Assembly (NCBI GenBank): GCA_016180645.1
Contig: JACPAV010000001.1
Span: forward strand, 1 to 12,443
Source: Nitrospirota bacterium
Lineage (GTDB): Bacteria > JACPQY01
Direction of reading: 5' to 3'
Length of the DNA: 12,443 bases
Both the position numbers and the translations under genes were made by a program. Positions 985 through 12,443 of this stretch are shown piece after piece; the first letter of the stretch is position 1, and every line of letters begins with the position of its first letter. Below the pieces are notes generated by a model that saw only the letters and a program-made list of their open reading frames with translations, ran no database searches and was not told the origin of the DNA.

Positions 985-1578
985 ATGAAACAAACGCGCT
1001 CCCGGTTCCCGCAACTCGCCTTACCCCTTGCCACTTACCACTCACTTCTTGCAGCCGCCCGGCGCCTGACGCCTGCCGCCCGGCGCGCCGCGCTCGCGGC
1101 GCTGCTCATCACCCTTCACGCATCACTCGTCACGCTCCCCGGCTGCGGAGACGACAAGAAATCCGACGGGGGCGCCTCGAAGGACGAGCTACGAACGCGG
1201 CTTTGGGCCGCCCAAACGGTTCTTGAAGAAAAAAGGTGTTCCGTTGCTTCGGCTTGCTATGCGAAGGAATTCGCCACCTACCCTGGACATGGAAGTGTCG
1301 AGAACTGCACGAAGGTCAACCTGGAGCAAATTCAGGTCGCCCTACAAATAATCAAAGGAGCGTCATTTGAACAAGATTGTTACCTCGATCCAGTGCCTGC
1401 TGCGGAGGCATGTGCTACAAGTGTGGCTGCGGCTGACGCAAGGAGTTTCTGTGGCTCGCTAGTAAAGGAGACATTGCGTTGGAATTTCTTGGCGGTTTCA
1501 GATTGCGCACCTATGGTTCTGAACAGGAAAGAGGGATGCGATACCCCCGTACTGGCACCCAAGCGGGGCATGCAGTAG
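985..1578 (+). CDS. Cys-rich exported lipoprotein, unknown function
   Basis: A 197-residue protein I do not recognise. The ATG follows AAAGGAG at good spacing. The N-terminus is long for a signal peptide: about 35 basic and Ala-rich residues, then the hydrophobic core LITLHASLVTLPGC with a good lipobox (LPGC, Cys54). This predicts a lipid-anchored protein, outer membrane or periplasmic. After the lipid Cys there are exactly eight more cysteines (85, 91, 108, 132, 143, 156, 174, 185), enough for four disulfides, in a mostly helical mature part. Its place 35 nt before the TraU-like gene suggests membership of the T4SS operon, perhaps as a surface or pore-associated lipoprotein, but that is inference. 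Two signal-peptide stretches are built from 7-nt-period repeats (1024-1088 and 1105-1140), so the real start or signal could be younger than the mature domain. GC is lower in the mature part than in later genes. Confidence 0.85.
   Translation: MKQTRSRFPQLALPLATYHSLLAAARRLTPAARRAALAALLITLHASLVTLPGCGDDKKSDGGASKDELRTRLWAAQTVLEEKRCSVASACYAKEFATYPGHGSVENCTKVNLEQIQVALQIIKGASFEQDCYLDPVPAAEACATSVAAADARSFCGSLVKETLRWNFLAVSDCAPMVLNRKEGCDTPVLAPKRGMQ
1105..1140 (+). repeat. Heptad array encoding the lipoprotein signal core
   Basis: CTCATCACCCTTCAC (1105-1119) continues as GCATCAC, TCGTCAC at 7-nt steps. The same 15-nt string occurs at 10007-10021 in the TraV-like gene, and it is read in the same frame (LITLH) in both genes. 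Confidence 0.75.
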
Positions 1579-7739: not shown

Positions 7740-8504
7740 ATGGTACGGGGGAGAATGAAAATCGGGGGAGCACTCGGCTCAATCGTCATCCTCGCGCTCT
7801 GCGCGTCGCCCGCGTATGCCATCCGCGCCGTGCCGTGGATTCCGGGGCGGACGGTGGTCGTCCAACTCAGGCAAGGCCAGACTACGGAAGTCATTTTCCC
7901 TTCCGATATCAGTCAGTTCTCCAACCCTGAAGCCGAACTCTTCTCGATCCAGTTCACCGGGGCACGGCTTTACGTGAAGCCGACGGCCTCGCTATCTCCC
8001 ACCCGGCTTTTCGCCACGGATACGGCCGGCCGCAGCTACGTGATCGAACTCCAGGAGGCCGCGGAGGGACAGAGGGAGGACGACAGCGTGGAGATCAGCC
8101 TGGAAGTGGCCGAAGGGCGCCCCGCGCCGGTCGCGCCCGGGCCGAACCGGCTTGTCTTGGATCTTATGAAAGCGATGCGGCTGGAGCGGCCCGTCGCGGG
8201 CTACCAAGTAACCGAGAAAAAGGGGGAGCTTTTTTACGAGGAGCCGAAGGTCCTCCAGTTCCGCCTCATCCGTGTTTATGAGGGAAGTGTCATGATCGGC
8301 TATGTGTACGAGATCGAGAATATGTCAAACGGTCCGCTCCGAGTGAATCCCCAGGAGTTCACGTTCAAAGGCTACGTCGCAGGATCGGTGGCGGACATGC
8401 AACTGGCGCCTGCCGAACCGAAGGATTCCGTGGAGGCGTTCAAGGGCAATCCGAAGAAGACCATCGCGTACGTTGTCGTTTCGAAGGCGGGGATTCGAAA
8501 ATGA
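7740..8504 (+). CDS. traK: TraK-like outer-membrane core-complex protein (VirB9 equivalent)
   Basis: A 254-residue protein. The ATG at 7740 has AGGG 9 nt upstream and opens directly on a signal peptide (MVRGRMKIGGALGS, hydrophobic core, AYA-I cleavage near residue 27). A longer frame from 7677 would put a charged, non-signal stretch in front and is not preferred. Mature features fit the TraK / ICE TIGR03749 family: V-VQLRQGQTTEVIFPSDIS, then LYVKPTA---TRLFATDTAGRSYVIEL, a central AMRLERPVAGYQV comparable to the PAGWYQV segment of F TraK, and a C-terminal domain with YEIENMSNGPLRVNPQEF. TraK is the secretin-like periplasmic partner that links lipoprotein TraV and inner-membrane TraB in the outer-membrane core complex. 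The K-B-V order here is the canonical one. The stop overlaps the traB start. Confidence 0.8.
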   Translation: MVRGRMKIGGALGSIVILALCASPAYAIRAVPWIPGRTVVVQLRQGQTTEVIFPSDISQFSNPEAELFSIQFTGARLYVKPTASLSPTRLFATDTAGRSYVIELQEAAEGQREDDSVEISLEVAEGRPAPVAPGPNRLVLDLMKAMRLERPVAGYQVTEKKGELFYEEPKVLQFRLIRVYEGSVMIGYVYEIENMSNGPLRVNPQEFTFKGYVAGSVADMQLAPAEPKDSVEAFKGNPKKTIAYVVVSKAGIRK

Positions 8505-9745
8505 ACAAGATCAAAGAATGGCTGGACAAGCGTGGACTCAAAGGCGGGAAGCTCTATGCCGCCATCGGGGCGATCGTCGTCATCGGGCTGATGTTCGTGG
8601 TTGCGAGTCTTCCCAAGGAAGCGAAGGCCCCCGCGGGACCGAAGTCGGCCGCGCTCATCCCTTCCGCTTCGCTCGGCGCGATCGCAAACCAGGCGGGAGG
8701 GTCCATTCAAATGCCGGCCGTATCGCCGGAGTACTTCAATGTGAAAGTCCAGCAATTCATCGACGAGACGAAGGCGTGGAAGAACGACCGGCAAAAGTTC
8801 GAGGCCGAGGTCCTGGTCCAGTTGCGGGCCTTGAAGGAACACGGCACGACGGATGCAGGGGTCAGCACGCAACTGGACAATCTACAGTCCCAGATTACCA
8901 ATATCGGTGACCAGTTGGATTCCCTGCGTAGCGGAGGATTCGGGTCGGGCGCGGAAAGAGACCGCCGAGCCGCCTCGGGTCCACTCCAACTCATCACCGT
9001 ACCGCCCAAAAAGAAAAGCGAATCAACCGACCGCGGTTCGCGGGAATCCGGCGCGCTTCGAGGCGGAGCCGGCGCCGCGCAAGAGTCCCCCTTTTACCTG
9101 CCGGCAGGCTCGATGGTAAAGGCTACACTGCTGAATGGAGTCGAAGCACCTCCTTCAACACAAGGCCCGGGCCTGCCGGTCCTTCTTCTCGTGCGCGATT
9201 CGTTCCTCGGCCCCAACTCCACCTCGCTGCCGATGGATGGTTGCATGGTGCTGGGGCGGGCAGACGGCGATCTCTCCTCCGAGCGCGTGAAAATCGCCGT
9301 CAGTCTTGTTTCGTGCGTGTTTCCGGGCGGACGAACGCTCGACCGCGCCGTGCAGGGTTATGTCTCGGGGCCGGACGGCAAGCTTGGCATTCCAGGAAAG
9401 GTCCACGATCGGCGCGGACGGAAACTCGGAATGGCCGTGCTGGCGGGCTTCACCGCCGGCCTTTCTCAAGCCATTGGCCAGTCCGAAGTGACACGCGTCC
9501 TCACCGCCGAGGGGACGGAGCGAACCATTGTTTCCGGCAGCACGCTTACATTTGGCATGAGCCAGGCACTCGGCTCCGCGCTTGCGGAAGTGACCAATTT
9601 CTACCGGCAGGAAATCCAGCGTCTATTTCCGGTGATCGAAGTCCACTCCGGAACGCAGGTCACGCTTGTTCTGGAGCAAGGGGTGGATGTCCCGGAGATG
9701 AATGCGCTTCTATCAGGTATAGAGAGCGTGAAGGGTGAGGAGTGA
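8501..9745 (+). CDS. traB: TraB/VirB10-like core-complex protein spanning the envelope
   Basis: A 414-residue protein. Its ATG overlaps the TGA of the TraK-like gene (ATGA). Short cytoplasmic N-terminus, one membrane helix at about residues 18-36, then a coiled-coil region (about 80-145), a Ser/Gly/charged linker, and the conserved C-terminal domain. That domain is textbook TraB: FYLPAGSMVKATLLNGVEAP (198-217), PVLLLVRDSFLGPN, DGCMVLGRADGDLSSERV with Cys248, SLVSCVFPGG with Cys272, YVSGPDGKLGIPGKV, then AGFTAGL. The two Cys of this block are a known TraB feature. TraB bridges inner and outer membranes and contacts TraK and TraV. Length is a little below F TraB (475 residues), mainly in the linker. 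The last codons (SVKGEE) lie inside a 7-nt-period array, and the TGA overlaps the ATG of an 11-codon vestige (MGDVKPRRREW, 9745-9780). Confidence 0.92.
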   Translation: MNKIKEWLDKRGLKGGKLYAAIGAIVVIGLMFVVASLPKEAKAPAGPKSAALIPSASLGAIANQAGGSIQMPAVSPEYFNVKVQQFIDETKAWKNDRQKFEAEVLVQLRALKEHGTTDAGVSTQLDNLQSQITNIGDQLDSLRSGGFGSGAERDRRAASGPLQLITVPPKKKSESTDRGSRESGALRGGAGAAQESPFYLPAGSMVKATLLNGVEAPPSTQGPGLPVLLLVRDSFLGPNSTSLPMDGCMVLGRADGDLSSERVKIAVSLVSCVFPGGRTLDRAVQGYVSGPDGKLGIPGKVHDRRGRKLGMAVLAGFTAGLSQAIGQSEVTRVLTAEGTERTIVSGSTLTFGMSQALGSALAEVTNFYRQEIQRLFPVIEVHSGTQVTLVLEQGVDVPEMNALLSGIESVKGEE

Positions 9746-9792
9746 TGGGTGACGTGAAGCCCCGAAGGCGTGAATGGTGAAGAGTCATGAGT
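9728..9792. repeat. GTGA-type heptad array across the traB 3' end
   Basis: GTGAAGG, GTGAGGA, GTGATGG, GTGACGT, GAAGCCC, CGAAGGC, GTGAATG, GTGAAGA, GTCATGA and GTGATGT follow at exact 7-nt steps. Coding for the end of TraB, the traB stop, the MGDVKP vestige and the start of the broken four-helix gene are all contained in it. GTGAAGGGTGA (9728-9738) is the exact reverse complement of 10011-10021. Confidence 0.8.
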
Positions 9793-9889
9793 GATGTGAA
9801 ACCCCAGGATGGACGGCCTCACAAGAGGTTGGATGTTTGGCGGAAGAGCATCGAGATGACAAGGGTGATCTACGAAGTGACAGGGAAAT
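9777..9889 (+). repeat. 113-bp direct repeat, copy A
   Basis: Matches 12331-12443 with two differences (9786 C/G and 9790 A/G). The last 99 bp (9791-9889 against 12345-12443) are identical. It covers the end of the heptad array and the first ~34 codons of a four-helix-bundle gene. Identity at synonymous positions points to recent duplication, gene conversion or assembly. Confidence 0.9.
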
Positions 9890-9986
9890 CGTTGACCCTT
9901 TGTTGGACGATATCAGCAGGATGCTCTCCGGTCTGATTCGCCACGTTGAGATGCGGAACGGGCGGGGAGGGGGCGGAGGAACATGA
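9787..9986 (+). pseudogene. Broken four-helix-bundle (23S rRNA intervening-protein-like) gene
   Basis: The frame from ATG 9787 reads the N-terminal motif of the family (RPHKRLDVWRKSIEMTRVIYEV) and then loses it, stopping at 9936 after 49 residues. A different frame, from about 9885, reads the family's C-terminal helix (EIVDPLLDDISRMLSGLIRH) to a TGA at 9984-9986. Compared with the intact paralogue at 10432-10854 (HHKLDIWNKAMG..., ARMLSGLVRY), the middle of the protein, including the RRAAVSI-NLAEGAAR segment, is missing and the two ends are out of frame. So this is an internal deletion, with GAAAT a plausible micro-homology at the junction. The remnant's TGA overlaps the ATG of the TraV-like gene (ATGA), so some coupling may survive. 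The family (PF05635 / TIGR02436) is known from proteins encoded in 23S rRNA intervening sequences; its function is unclear. Confidence 0.85.
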
Positions 9987-10399
9987 GGGCTGTCCGACTT
10001 TTCATTCTCATCACCCTTCACTCATCACTCTTCATGAGTTTGCCCGCCTGTGCGGGTAAGACGAAGGGCAAGAGCACCCTCGCCGTCTACCAGGAAGCCC
10101 TCGGCGAAGGCACCCGCGAGGGGATCGAGGTGCTCAAGCAGGATTTCAAGCGTGAGCAGCCGCTCGGTTACGAGGAACCGGTCGTCCCCGTGATGTCGCC
10201 GCCCGAAACCATGCTGGTTTGGTTCGCCAACCAGAAAATCGGAGATGAGGTCTTTGTGCATGGCCATTGGGTCCAGATCGTCATCCGGCCGTGGGAATGG
10301 AACCCGGACATCTTGAACAGCCCTGCTCCCTCGCCCCGTACCGGGGGACAGGGGACACCCTTCCCGCTCCACCCGGAATCCAAGCCGAAGAACGAATAA
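9983..10399 (+). CDS. traV: TraV-like outer-membrane lipoprotein (VirB7 equivalent)
   Basis: A 138-residue lipoprotein. The ATG at 9983 is close to GGAGGA (9975-9980); a GGGGAGG at 9964-9970 may also serve. The signal peptide ends in a good lipobox (SLPAC, Cys23), predicting an outer-membrane lipoprotein. The mature part is short: a helical segment (about 34-55), then PVMSPPETMLVWFANQKIGD and VFVHGHWVQIVIRPWEW (about 94-110). This recalls the TraV C-terminal block (WIAPYID...SVFFVIKPSAW in F TraV) and the ICE TIGR03751 lipoprotein. TraV anchors the core complex in the outer membrane with TraK and TraB, and its place after traB is the usual one. The TraV call rests on this block plus synteny. 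The last ~27 residues (Pro/Ser/Gly-rich) are read from an intergenic-type hairpin string and may be a late extension. The signal core is encoded by a heptad array (10007-10039). Confidence 0.65.
   Translation: MRAVRLFILITLHSSLFMSLPACAGKTKGKSTLAVYQEALGEGTREGIEVLKQDFKREQPLGYEEPVVPVMSPPETMLVWFANQKIGDEVFVHGHWVQIVIRPWEWNPDILNSPAPSPRTGGQGTPFPLHPESKPKNE
10007..10039 (+). repeat. TCAC-type heptad array encoding the TraV signal core
   Basis: CTCATCACCCTTCAC (10007-10021) continues as TCATCAC, TCTTCAT. It is the approximate reverse complement of the array at 9728-9792 (TCACCCTTCAC against GTGAAGGGTGA is exact). The broken four-helix gene therefore lies between inverted arrays, and the right-hand array is read as ILITLHSSLFM. 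Confidence 0.75.
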
Positions 10400-10402
10400 G
10401 AC

Positions 10403-10455
10403 GTGAGGTGGGAGGTGGGAGGAGTGGAATCGTGAACCGTGAACCCGTGACCCCG
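10403..10455. repeat. GTGA-type heptad array, left end of the intact four-helix cassette
   Basis: GTGAGGT, GGGAGGT, GGGAGGA, GTGGAAT, CGTGAAC, CGTGAAC, CCGTGAC follow at 7-nt steps. GTGAGGTG (10403-10410) is the reverse complement of 10950-10957. GGAATCGTGA (10426-10435) is the reverse complement of 10883-10892. The array runs into the start of the gene at 10432. Confidence 0.7.
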
Positions 10456-10854
10456 ACGCGACGATTCGAGCGGCCACATCATAAGCTCGATATTTGGAAC
10501 AAGGCCATGGGTCTTGCCGAACAGGTCTACCAGCTTACGCGCAGTTTCCCAGCCGATGAAAAGTACGGGCTTGTCCTACAAATGCGGCGAGCGGCTGTCA
10601 GCATCGTCAGCAACCTTGCCGAAGGGGCGGCAAGACGGACCAACAAGGAGCTGGAGCAATTCCTCCATATCGCGCAGGGATCCCTGAGCGAACTTGAGGC
10701 CCAATTCGAGTTGGCCGAACGCCTCGGCCTCGTTAATCAATGGGCACGCGACTTGGTCAACGATGTCGCGCGAATGCTGTCTGGGCTTGTCCGGTATGCT
10801 AGGAATAGGCGGGCCGATGGCGTAACAAGAGAAGCCGTGAGGTATCCAGGGTGA
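10432..10854 (+). CDS. Four-helix-bundle protein (23S rRNA intervening-protein-like), intact
   Basis: 140 residues from GTG 10432, which has AGGAG about 8 nt upstream; GTG 10447 is an alternative. The frame is open further upstream, but only through the TraV-like gene and repeats. The protein has the whole family pattern (PF05635 / TIGR02436): HHKLDIWNKAMGLAEQVYQL, SFPADEKYGLVLQMRRAAVS, IVSNLAEGAARRTNKEL, QFLHIAQGSLSELEAQFELA, then ARMLSGLVRYARNRR. Its length is near the family norm of about 115-130, plus a short tail. Known members include proteins encoded in 23S rRNA intervening sequences, and the Avd accessory protein of diversity-generating retroelements has a related fold. A role in T4SS is not known, and the gene looks like a lodger between traV and the secretin-like gene. 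The first codons (VNREPVTP) come from the heptad array, so the true N-terminus is uncertain. Confidence 0.85.
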   Translation: MNREPVTPTRRFERPHHKLDIWNKAMGLAEQVYQLTRSFPADEKYGLVLQMRRAAVSIVSNLAEGAARRTNKELEQFLHIAQGSLSELEAQFELAERLGLVNQWARDLVNDVARMLSGLVRYARNRRADGVTREAVRYPG

Positions 10855-10878
10855 CGGGTTTTCCTGGACTTTCCGCTC

Positions 10879-10957
10879 GGGCTCACGATTCCCGGTTTTC
10901 GATTCTCGTGATGCGGGCCTTGTCCCACCGCCTCTCGCCTCCCGTTTCTCACCTCAC
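10879..10957. repeat. TCAC-type heptad array, right end of the intact four-helix cassette
   Basis: Units such as GGCTCAC, GATTCCC, GGTTTTC, GATTCTC and, after a break, GCCTCTC, GCCTCCC, GTTTCTC, ACCTCAC keep 7-nt spacing. TCACGATTCC (10883-10892) and CACCTCAC (10950-10957) are exact reverse complements of strings at the left end, giving imperfect inverted termini about 555 bp apart. Confidence 0.65.
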
Positions 10958-10987
10958 AAACAAGTAATGTAACCGAAAGGGGGAGCC

Positions 10988-12313
10988 ATGCTTCAGATGT
11001 GGGACATTCTGCCGGGATCTGCCTCCCGGCTCCTGCTACTCACGATTTGCACCTTGCCACTCACCACCCATTCGTGCGGCGGGAGCCGGCGCGAAAGCTA
11101 CTCCATGGATGACGAGGCGAAGAAGACGGCTTTGCAGGAGGTGGCGCAACAGGAAGGGCGAGAGGCGGGAGGAGAGAGGCGGGAGGGGGAAGGGCTTGGA
11201 GCGGGAGGCGGGAGGAGAGGGGAAGGGGGTGGGGAGCGTGAGCCGGAGGAGCGCGTGTCGGCGAGCCGGCGGGAGGCGGAGACGGTGCGGTCGACGCCAT
11301 CCGTTTCACTGAAAGCGAACGGTATCCCCCTCCGCATGGCCATGGAGCGCCTCGCGGCCCAGGCCGAGTGGCGCGTGCGCTGGGGGGAAGGCGTGGGCCA
11401 GGACGCGACCGTGTCGCTCGACGTGGAGGAGTTGGCGTTCCAGATGGCTGCCGAAGATCTTGCCGCGCAGGCGGGGTATGCCGCGGAGTTCGATTTCTCC
11501 GGGCACTCCGTCACGGTGCTCCGCTATGTGGAGCGAGTATTCTATCTGCCGGAAATCTGGGCGAGGCGGCAAATGCCTCTGCCGGGAAACGGAAATCCGG
11601 GCGTCTTCATCCGCTACGCCGAAGACCCGGCGACGGGAGTGGAGAACTCGATTCGGTCCTTCCTCTCGCCGCAGGGCAAAGTATTCGTGGATCCCATCAA
11701 CGGGACGGTGATGGTGCGCGACGAGCACACGAACATGAGGAGTCTTGAGCGATACTTCGCGCGGCTCAGCGATGAAGCCCGAACGCCCTGGCTCGTGGAG
11801 GTGGCCATCCTCGTCGCGTCTCCAGGGGAACAGGGCATACGGTGGGACAAGGTCGGAGAACGGCTCGGCTCGGCGCCCGGCGCCGGTGAGGGTCCCGCCG
11901 CCCTCGCGGCTCAGCTTGCCCAGGAGAAAGGTGATCCCGTGGCGATGCTCCTGAAGGCCCTCGCCCCGGAGAAGGCCCGCCTCCTGTCCAAGCCTGAATT
12001 CCTCACGCTCAACGGCTGGACCGTTCAACTTGCGGTTGCATCGGGCGCCGGCGCCGGGGGCGCGGGATGGGAACTCCGGCTCACCACGCACCGCGACTAC
12101 GCGAATCCGAGCGCCGTCGTCATCGAAGCGGCCGGGGGCCTGTCGGACAAGGTGACTCAAAGTTTCTCCACCGCCGCGAGCGCGGAGATAGGTCAACCGC
12201 TGATCGTCTCCACCGGCGTGGGCACGTCCGTTGAAAAAGGCTGGCTCAGCGATAAACGCCATACCCAGGAAGCCATCTTCGTCATCCGGGTCCTGCCGAA
12301 TCGGAAGCCGTGA
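10988..12313 (+). CDS. Short secretin-like protein, probable lipoprotein
   Basis: A 441-residue protein. The ATG follows GGGGGAG closely. The leader has a hydrophobic core (LLLLTICTLPLTTHSC); Cys30 could be lipidated, but the lipobox THSC is weak. Residues about 50-100 are a low-complexity Gly/Arg/Glu linker. Residues about 105-178 resemble an STN/N0 domain (SLKANGIPLRMAMERLAAQAEW... SLDVEEL... HSVTVLRY). Residues about 228-262 resemble a short secretin N-domain (VFVDPINGTVMVRDEHTNM). The rest resembles the secretin core: TPWLVEVAIL, LLSKPEFLTLNGWTVQLAV, and a closing QEAIFVIRVLP that parallels the LLIF-TPRI end of PilQ/PilN-type secretins. It is short for a secretin (500-700 residues usual), and the region between SKPEF and the end is compressed, so gating or lip strands may be missing. 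PilN/BfpB-type lipoprotein secretins of type IVb pili are the nearest analogues I can name. Its place beside traK-B-V suggests an outer-membrane ring role. Confidence 0.7.
   Translation: MLQMWDILPGSASRLLLLTICTLPLTTHSCGGSRRESYSMDDEAKKTALQEVAQQEGREAGGERREGEGLGAGGGRRGEGGGEREPEERVSASRREAETVRSTPSVSLKANGIPLRMAMERLAAQAEWRVRWGEGVGQDATVSLDVEELAFQMAAEDLAAQAGYAAEFDFSGHSVTVLRYVERVFYLPEIWARRQMPLPGNGNPGVFIRYAEDPATGVENSIRSFLSPQGKVFVDPINGTVMVRDEHTNMRSLERYFARLSDEARTPWLVEVAILVASPGEQGIRWDKVGERLGSAPGAGEGPAALAAQLAQEKGDPVAMLLKALAPEKARLLSKPEFLTLNGWTVQLAVASGAGAGGAGWELRLTTHRDYANPSAVVIEAAGGLSDKVTQSFSTAASAEIGQPLIVSTGVGTSVEKGWLSDKRHTQEAIFVIRVLPNRKP
11150..11245 (+). repeat. Purine-rich near-heptad repeat inside the secretin-like gene
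   Basis: GCGAGAG, GCGGGAG, GAGAGAG, GCGGGAG, GGGGAAG and later GCGGGAG, GAGAGGG, GAAGGGG follow mostly at 7-nt steps with one slip. The strand is almost pure A/G. It encodes the Gly/Arg/Glu linker (about residues 55-86). The same GCGGGAG-like words occur in the intergenic arrays at 10403 and, reverse complemented, at 10930-10957. Confidence 0.7.
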
Positions 12314-12330
12314 GTCGGGGAAGTAGATGG

Positions 12331-12443
12331 GTGAAGAGTGATGGGTGATGTGAAACCCCAGGATGGACGGCCTCACAAGAGGTTGGATGTTTGGCGGAAG
12401 AGCATCGAGATGACAAGGGTGATCTACGAAGTGACAGGGAAAT
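12331..12443 (+). repeat. 113-bp direct repeat, copy B (reaches the window end)
   Basis: Matches 9777-9889 with two differences; the final 99 bp are identical. The window ends at the GGGAAAT where copy A's own coding frame breaks down, so it cannot be seen here whether copy B continues as a normal gene. Confidence 0.9.
12341..12443 (+). CDS. Four-helix-bundle protein, 5' part only
   Basis: An ATG inside a GTGA-type heptad array (about 12324-12350) opens 34 codons, MGDVKPQDGRPHKRLDVW followed by RKSIEMTRVIYEVTGK, up to the window edge. This is the first helix of the PF05635 / TIGR02436 family and differs from the broken copy at 9787 only at residue 2 (Gly for Ser). The start lies 28 nt after the stop of the secretin-like gene. 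If intact it should continue with an SFP-(D/K)E-(K/R)YGL-like segment. It may equally be broken like its twin. Confidence 0.7.
   Translation, partial: MGDVKPQDGRPHKRLDVWRKSIEMTRVIYEVTGK

Follow-up and report, generated by a model that had tools for sequence, protein, structure and literature searches.

Analysis of a 12,443-bp stretch of DNA from a Nitrospirota bacterium (JACPAV010000001.1, the whole of contig C1, hereafter the window; parent genome, 4.7 Mb) points to a widespread class of small spreading elements that seems not to have been described before. Judged from its sequence, each unit is a cassette of about 0.4 to 0.6 kb in total, in which one PF05635 open reading frame (ORF) lies between two self-complementary arrays of 7-bp words. 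PF05635 is the four-helix-bundle family of the intervening sequences (IVSs) of 23S rRNA genes, and its product is called IVP here. Three family members fill three gaps of an F-type type IV secretion system (T4SS) operon in the window: after traB, after traV, and after the gene at 10988..12313. We regard such IVS-type cassettes as probable small non-autonomous elements that spread via intercistronic gaps and have gene-less derivatives. Sequence comparisons demonstrated an association of arrays with IVP genes, filled and empty sites, near-identical dispersed copies, co-evolution of left and right arrays, and an array abundance linked to IVP genes. The initial annotation of the window had suggested an undescribed non-autonomous element with inverted ends. 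The element was supported and withstood each test proposed for refuting it (arrays beside other genes, empty sites, and boundaries), but its ends are not fixed, with only the agreement between left and right words being conserved.

All window features described here are on the forward (+) strand. In cassette 2, the left array (GTGAGGTG..GGAATCGTGAACCGTGAACC..; 10403..10456) and the right array, inverted with respect to it (10880..10957), enclose an intact IVP gene (10465..10854; PF05635, TIGR02436). The gene matches PF05635 at 10483-10779 (Pfam E values of 2.7e-33 to 5.7e-33), TIGR02436 (2.7e-31), and the pentameric structure PDB 2GSC (2e-28). Cassette 1 has a left array of GTGA-type heptads with period 7 (9725..9796), a broken IVP gene (9796..9986), and a right array of TCAC-type heptads (10007..10034) that is the inverted match of the left one. 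The broken gene is an internal-deletion derivative, in which about 31 N-terminal codons are joined to about 33 C-terminal codons at approximately 9889; its stop overlaps the start of the following TraV-like gene (ATGA). Cassette 3 consists of a left array with period 7 (12310..12350) and the N-terminal part of an IVP gene (12350..12443), which is near-identical to 9796-9889 (98% over 114 bp); the final ~107 bp of the window nearly repeat 9781-9889. Exact inverted words link the ends: GTGAAGGGTGA at 9728 with TCACCCTTCAC at 10011 (the latter also at 1109), GTGAGGTG at 10403 with CACCTCAC at 10950, and GGAATCGTGA at 10426 with TCACGATTCC at 10883. The inverted similarity of left and right arrays exceeded that of shuffled sequences (site 1, P < 0.0005, 0/2,000; site 2, P = 0.0015) and that of window pairs of equal spacing (P = 0.0035 and P = 0.003, respectively). 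The array positions and all three word pairs given in the initial annotation were thereby reproduced.

Two of its other statements held in part. The third copy had been described as cut by the edge of the window; it is cut, but position 12443 is also the end of the contig, so the break was made by the assembly. At the start of contig C65 lies the C-terminal part of a sister IVP copy, in frame and 94% identical to 9888-10050. Because the end of C1 repeats the start of copy 1 and C65 opens with a C-terminal part, the two contigs are probably adjacent and join inside cassette 3. The assembly break (window position 12443 and the start of C65) coincides with the point where intact and deleted IVP copies diverge. 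The cassettes had also been placed in operon gaps; three gaps are indeed occupied, but the arrays of copy 1 lie partly inside coding sequence (the end of TraB and the signal peptide of the TraV-like protein).

The remaining four clear PF05635 genes in the window genome are likewise bounded by inverted heptads, and the word is different at each (GGTTCCT/AGGAACC on C10 and GATTTGA, GACAATG, and ATGACCC types on C7, C30, and C19, respectively); matched arrays were found at 5/5 clear IVP genes of this genome. A survey of eighty named loci from many phyla, together with others taken from the relatives of the window genome, included Proteobacteria, Bacteroidota, Acidobacteriota, Nitrospirota, the candidate phyla radiation (CPR), Planctomycetes, and Firmicutes, and IVP genes lie between inverted heptad arrays in at least a dozen bacterial phyla. 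Period-7 arrays were present within 250 bp of 100 IVP genes on the left in 42, on the right in 56, and on both sides in 32, compared with 13, 20, and 3, respectively, of 330 control ORFs from the same loci; these counts are estimates, since the control set consists of mechanically defined ORFs. The enrichment beside IVP genes that the initial annotation had proposed to test for is thus present. Periods 5, 6, and 9 to 13 were near zero beside IVP genes, and a minority of loci (the Brucella group: L105, L094, L129, and L141) carried an 8-bp unit (GGAGTAGG) in place of 7. The boundaries, which had been expected to be conserved, follow a regular pattern, with the arrays running right up to the stop codon of the preceding gene on one side and to the start codon of the following gene on the other. 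RNA folds pair the two arrays around the ORF, as in cassette 2 (z = -3.5) and at locus L153 (z = -5.1).

The two arrays of a cassette match each other specifically. After removal of close relatives, 91 loci were left, and the best inverted partner of a left flank among the 91 right flanks was its own in 54 loci (expected, 1). A match score of at least 30 was reached at 62/91 loci; the rate was 1.8% for cross pairs, and among control genes 6/249 reached it. Since words differ among elements, conservation extends to the period and to the left-right agreement but not to the sequence. Such figures leave little room for an origin by chance or composition, in which a gap-dwelling gene family would simply sit in G+A-rich intergenic DNA. 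A GTGA-like character common to the words does produce occasional high cross-pair scores, but the specificity for period 7, the matching of own pairs, and the control genes reject this explanation, which we consider extremely improbable.

Empty sites, sought in relatives, were found at site 1 of the same operon in a sister genus (G001, described below) and at the accB|accC junction of Xanthomonadaceae. This junction was readable in 68 of 79 genomes. It was empty in 35/68, with a spacer of 3 to 13 bp (typically 10), held an array-IVP-array unit in 19/68, and held an array pair without IVP in 3/68. The arrays reached the accB stop and the accC start in all 19 of the 19 filled sites. Occupancy required approximately 13 parsimony changes on the accB tree, and the 19 IVP ORFs were under purifying selection (median dN/dS, 0.21). 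The words at this site drift (GGGAATC, GGGATTC, GTGATTC, and others), and left and right arrays drift jointly: own pairs scored 44.8 versus 30.2 for cross pairs (0/20,000 permutations), and left-left and right-right similarities were correlated (0.76). The idea that the word at this site is always the commonest word of its genome was refuted; the genome does contain the word, but left and right agree more tightly at the site itself. Separately, a few other Xanthomonadaceae (L249, L254, L255, L259 to L261, and L270) carry a different short palindromic repeat (gcgggg..ccgcgagcccgcgaacgcc..) in the accB|accC gap.

In the sister genus, traB and traV overlap (TGATG), which means that only one of the two genera has cassette 1. 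Both site 2 and site 3 are occupied by IVP cassettes, with a full one at site 3, and the words are AGTAAGC/GTGAACA and AGTGAGC; cassettes are thus retained at these sites in both genera, and both words have changed. At site 2 of G001, the stop-free IVP frame continues into the downstream T4SS gene with the right array forming the join, and this appears to be a gene fusion made by the cassette.

Multiplication within a genome was seen in G009 (L165 to L174), where a ~700-bp unit is repeated about nine times between unrelated flanks, the closest pairs being 94 to 99% identical. The unit has two divergent IVP paralogues around a central palindrome and heptads beyond the right-hand gene, and several copies are without the middle ~230 bp. 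Several other genomes have 5 to 10 IVP genes each. Gene-less arrays are also numerous: a 778-kb sample of the window genome contained 65 period-7 arrays versus 0 to 5 for other periods, many of them with an inverted partner 40 to 110 bp away and no IVP. Since GTGA/TCAC arrays are dispersed in this way and many inverted pairs are free of IVP, an array alone is not diagnostic, and the enrichment at IVP genes is. The abundance of arrays followed the presence of the gene. At least 30 exact dimers of three words were counted in 20/35 Xanthomonadaceae genomes with IVP versus 2/44 without (Fisher's test, 2.7e-7). A Pagel-type test on the accB tree favored a dependent model over an independent one (likelihood ratio statistic, 36.9), the P value of which is rough because the tree is that of a short single gene. 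A GCTGAxx heptad family in the window genome (C2, C5, C10, and C35) forms inverted pairs in the opposite order, with the C-rich array first, and no IVP partner was present among those found there. An apparent replichore strand bias of GGGATTC arrays in genome G060 proved, when checked against the sequence itself, to be an artefact of listing order.

These dispersed arrays raise the alternative that arrays came first. Heptads would then be simple sequence repeats (SSRs) of the host, intergenic features growing by slippage, and the IVP gene a passenger landing or persisting in tolerated sites. Arrays without IVP are abundant both in the window genome and in published surveys (Rehm et al. 2015, PMC4692102), and gene-less inverted pairs occur at accB|accC too. 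However, the two arrays around an IVP gene share one word and match each other better than words from other loci, array abundance depends on the presence of IVP across genomes, and the 35 empty accB|accC sites carry no arrays. We therefore judge an arrays-first origin unlikely.

A second alternative would make the cassette a regulatory mRNA device, retained vertically under selection, in which an intercistronic array stem serves RNase III processing or attenuation and IVP binds its own transcript. The RNA stems, the purifying selection on the ORF, and the RNase III excision of the 23S IVS (PMC4990558) agree with such a device, as does the mostly intercistronic and co-directional placement of cassettes (57/89). 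Yet this co-direction is barely above that of control genes (64% versus 54%), and cassettes antisense to both neighbors occur. On a Nostoc edaphicum plasmid (L357), one lies antisense between two ribonucleotide reductase (nrd) genes with flanking AGTAGGG arrays, and on a Calothrix plasmid (L360), another lies antisense between two transporter genes. In addition, the neighbors differ widely (T4SS, accBC, metF, rfb, nrd, and hsd), the sites are patchily filled and empty, and the units are amplified to multiple copies. A purely regulatory role accordingly seems quite improbable.

For a spreading element, we infer that the ends would be defined by self-complementarity and 7-bp periodicity, recognized as a hairpin in single-stranded DNA or in a transcript, with no fixed sequence. 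Movement, as DNA or via RNA, would be carried out by host machinery, with copying by template switching at replication forks, recombination among arrays, or a reverse transcriptase (RT) acting in trans. The pentameric IVP protein may bind array nucleic acid and aid the persistence and multiplication of arrays. Inverted pairs without a gene could arise by internal deletion, as perhaps could single arrays, and these might then disperse through the genome as do REPINs (introduced below). In the sense orientation, the transcript would form a long stem, which RNase III might cleave, as in the 23S rRNA IVS.

Several observations weigh against the cassettes being spreading elements. No target-site duplication was apparent by eye at accB|accC, where the spacer is only ~10 bp and mostly replaced, and conserved occupancy together with purifying selection there is also consistent with a useful resident gene. 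The window cassettes showed no transposase, recombinase, or RT, and the lack of a conserved word rules out classic end recognition. The link between gene and arrays is imperfect: some IVP loci have no detectable arrays, five IVP-free genomes have at least 10 counted arrays (two of these, at least 30), and counts below 10 were obtained for 14 IVP genomes, in which other words may be used. IVP genes were rare among plasmids (23 of 72,556 records, nearly all cyanobacterial) and absent from the phage records searched, so transfer between cells is unexplained.

Among the 23S rRNA IVS, miniature inverted-repeat transposable elements (MITEs) derived from insertion sequences, and the system of REPINs (doublets of repetitive extragenic palindromic [REP] sequences forming hairpins) and RAYTs (REP-associated tyrosine transposases; PMC3116915), the cassettes work most like REPIN/RAYT, differing by the gene. 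Repeat abundance is tied to a resident gene in RAYT systems, and the abundance of dispersed inverted pairs likewise depends on the resident gene here. Both have a few gene-bearing parents with inverted repeats and many dispersed gene-less inverted pairs. However, RAYT is a TnpA-like (Y1 HUH) transposase acting on a fixed palindrome, whereas the resident gene here is PF05635 only, encoding a four-helix bundle without known catalysis, and the repeat word drifts. Unlike the MITEs, the cassettes have no fixed terminal inverted repeat; each element has its own word, and this is so even where the sites are orthologous.

The resemblance to the 23S rRNA IVS noted in the initial annotation finds support in published work on Coxiella. 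The IVSs of Leptospira and Coxiella share the ORF family, the size (about 430 nt), the terminal inverted repeats forming a stem, and the sense orientation; in Coxiella, tandem heptamers (GACAGAT) stand just before the S23p ORF, inside the terminal inverted stem, and the IVS is excised by RNase III (Warrier et al. 2016, PMC4990558). The cassettes differ in lying in gaps between protein genes rather than inside a 23S rRNA gene, in having multi-copy heptad arrays with a variable word on both sides, and in occurring as several units plus gene-less derivatives per genome. The 23S rRNA gene had also been named as a place to look in the window genome, and its sole 23S gene (C4) has neither IVP nor a period-7 array. 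Heptameric repeats themselves have been described: GGGAATC and GGGGATT repeats in Xanthomonas and Nostoc are intergenic and near stop codons, form 70 to 75 convergent inverted pairs per Xanthomonas genome, and had no reported general association with mobile elements (PMC4692102). These SSRs, the short tandemly repeated repetitive (STRR) sequences of cyanobacteria, and TAACTGA repeats (PMC4679880) resemble our arrays in being the same heptads, in tandem, intergenic, and often in convergent pairs, but they were treated as stand-alone SSRs or G-quadruplex (G4) sequences, with no link to the IVP gene. We found no paper in the open-access full text that connects IVP genes located outside rRNA to inverted arrays of heptads. 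The occurrence of IVP genes in cas loci has been reported (PMC3936711).

PF05635 also resembles Avd (PMC10053308), the RT accessory protein of diversity-generating retroelements (DGRs), of which IVP is a distant homologue (NF033474, 1.3e-5, below cut-off; PHROG Avd, 2e-11). This relationship suggests, by analogy, a nucleic-acid-binding role for IVP. No RT family match was obtained among the window proteins scanned and no template or variable repeat was seen in the window; a genome-wide search for such repeats was not made.

These cassettes probably include the 23S rRNA insert as a special case. A wider proposition, conceivable but short of likely, is that of a bacteria-wide class of elements with matching 7-bp-periodic inverted arrays as ends and a non-enzymatic pentameric four-helix-bundle protein as driver, of which the 23S rRNA IVS, the Xanthomonas GGGAATC repeats, and the cyanobacterial heptads would be parts. 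Three old puzzles meet here, namely, the role of the 23S rRNA IVS protein, the origin of bacterial heptameric repeats, and the spread of IVSs, and each can now be tested in ordinary laboratory strains. For the last of these, Ralph and McClelland (1993), as cited in PMC4990558, proposed a mobile element carrying an ORF that was required for its mobility. The cassettes also account for the scattered annotation "four helix bundle protein" within unrelated operons.

Cassettes reshape host genes as well, their array ends being turned into protein tails and signal peptides. The left array of cassette 1 encodes the final codons of TraB (SVKGEE*); the G001 TraB ends in GGVE* and is array-free. In the TraV-like signal peptide, the residues LITLHSSL come from the right array, whose 28 bp are also found, without any change, at C65:7343 and 12536. 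At several places, the hydrophobic core of a lipoprotein signal peptide (LITLHSSLFT.. or SLLAAYCLLG) is made up of codons from a TCAC-type (or TGCTTAC-type) array: at window positions 1109-1133 and 10007-10034, at C65 2593, 5033, 7343, and 12536, at C7 7728-7766, and in the G001 gene after site 2. Thus, several different genes appear to have gained their export signals from repeat ends.

The T4SS operon of the window includes TraK-like, TraB/TrbI, and TraV-like lipoprotein genes and additional genes; no Rfam family was found in the window. The TraB/VirB10-like gene, the 5' neighbor of site 1 (8501..9745), matches Pfam TrbI (2.4e-23) and the NCBIfam TraB profile (2.2e-27, under the cut-off of that profile). 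The TraV-like lipoprotein gene (9983..10399) is 45% identical to the G001 gene directly after traB. For the gene at 10988..12313, labeled secretin-like in the initial annotation, Pfam and NCBIfam profile searches returned zero family matches; its product has a lipoprotein N-terminus and is 51.6% identical to that of the G001 gene in the same place.

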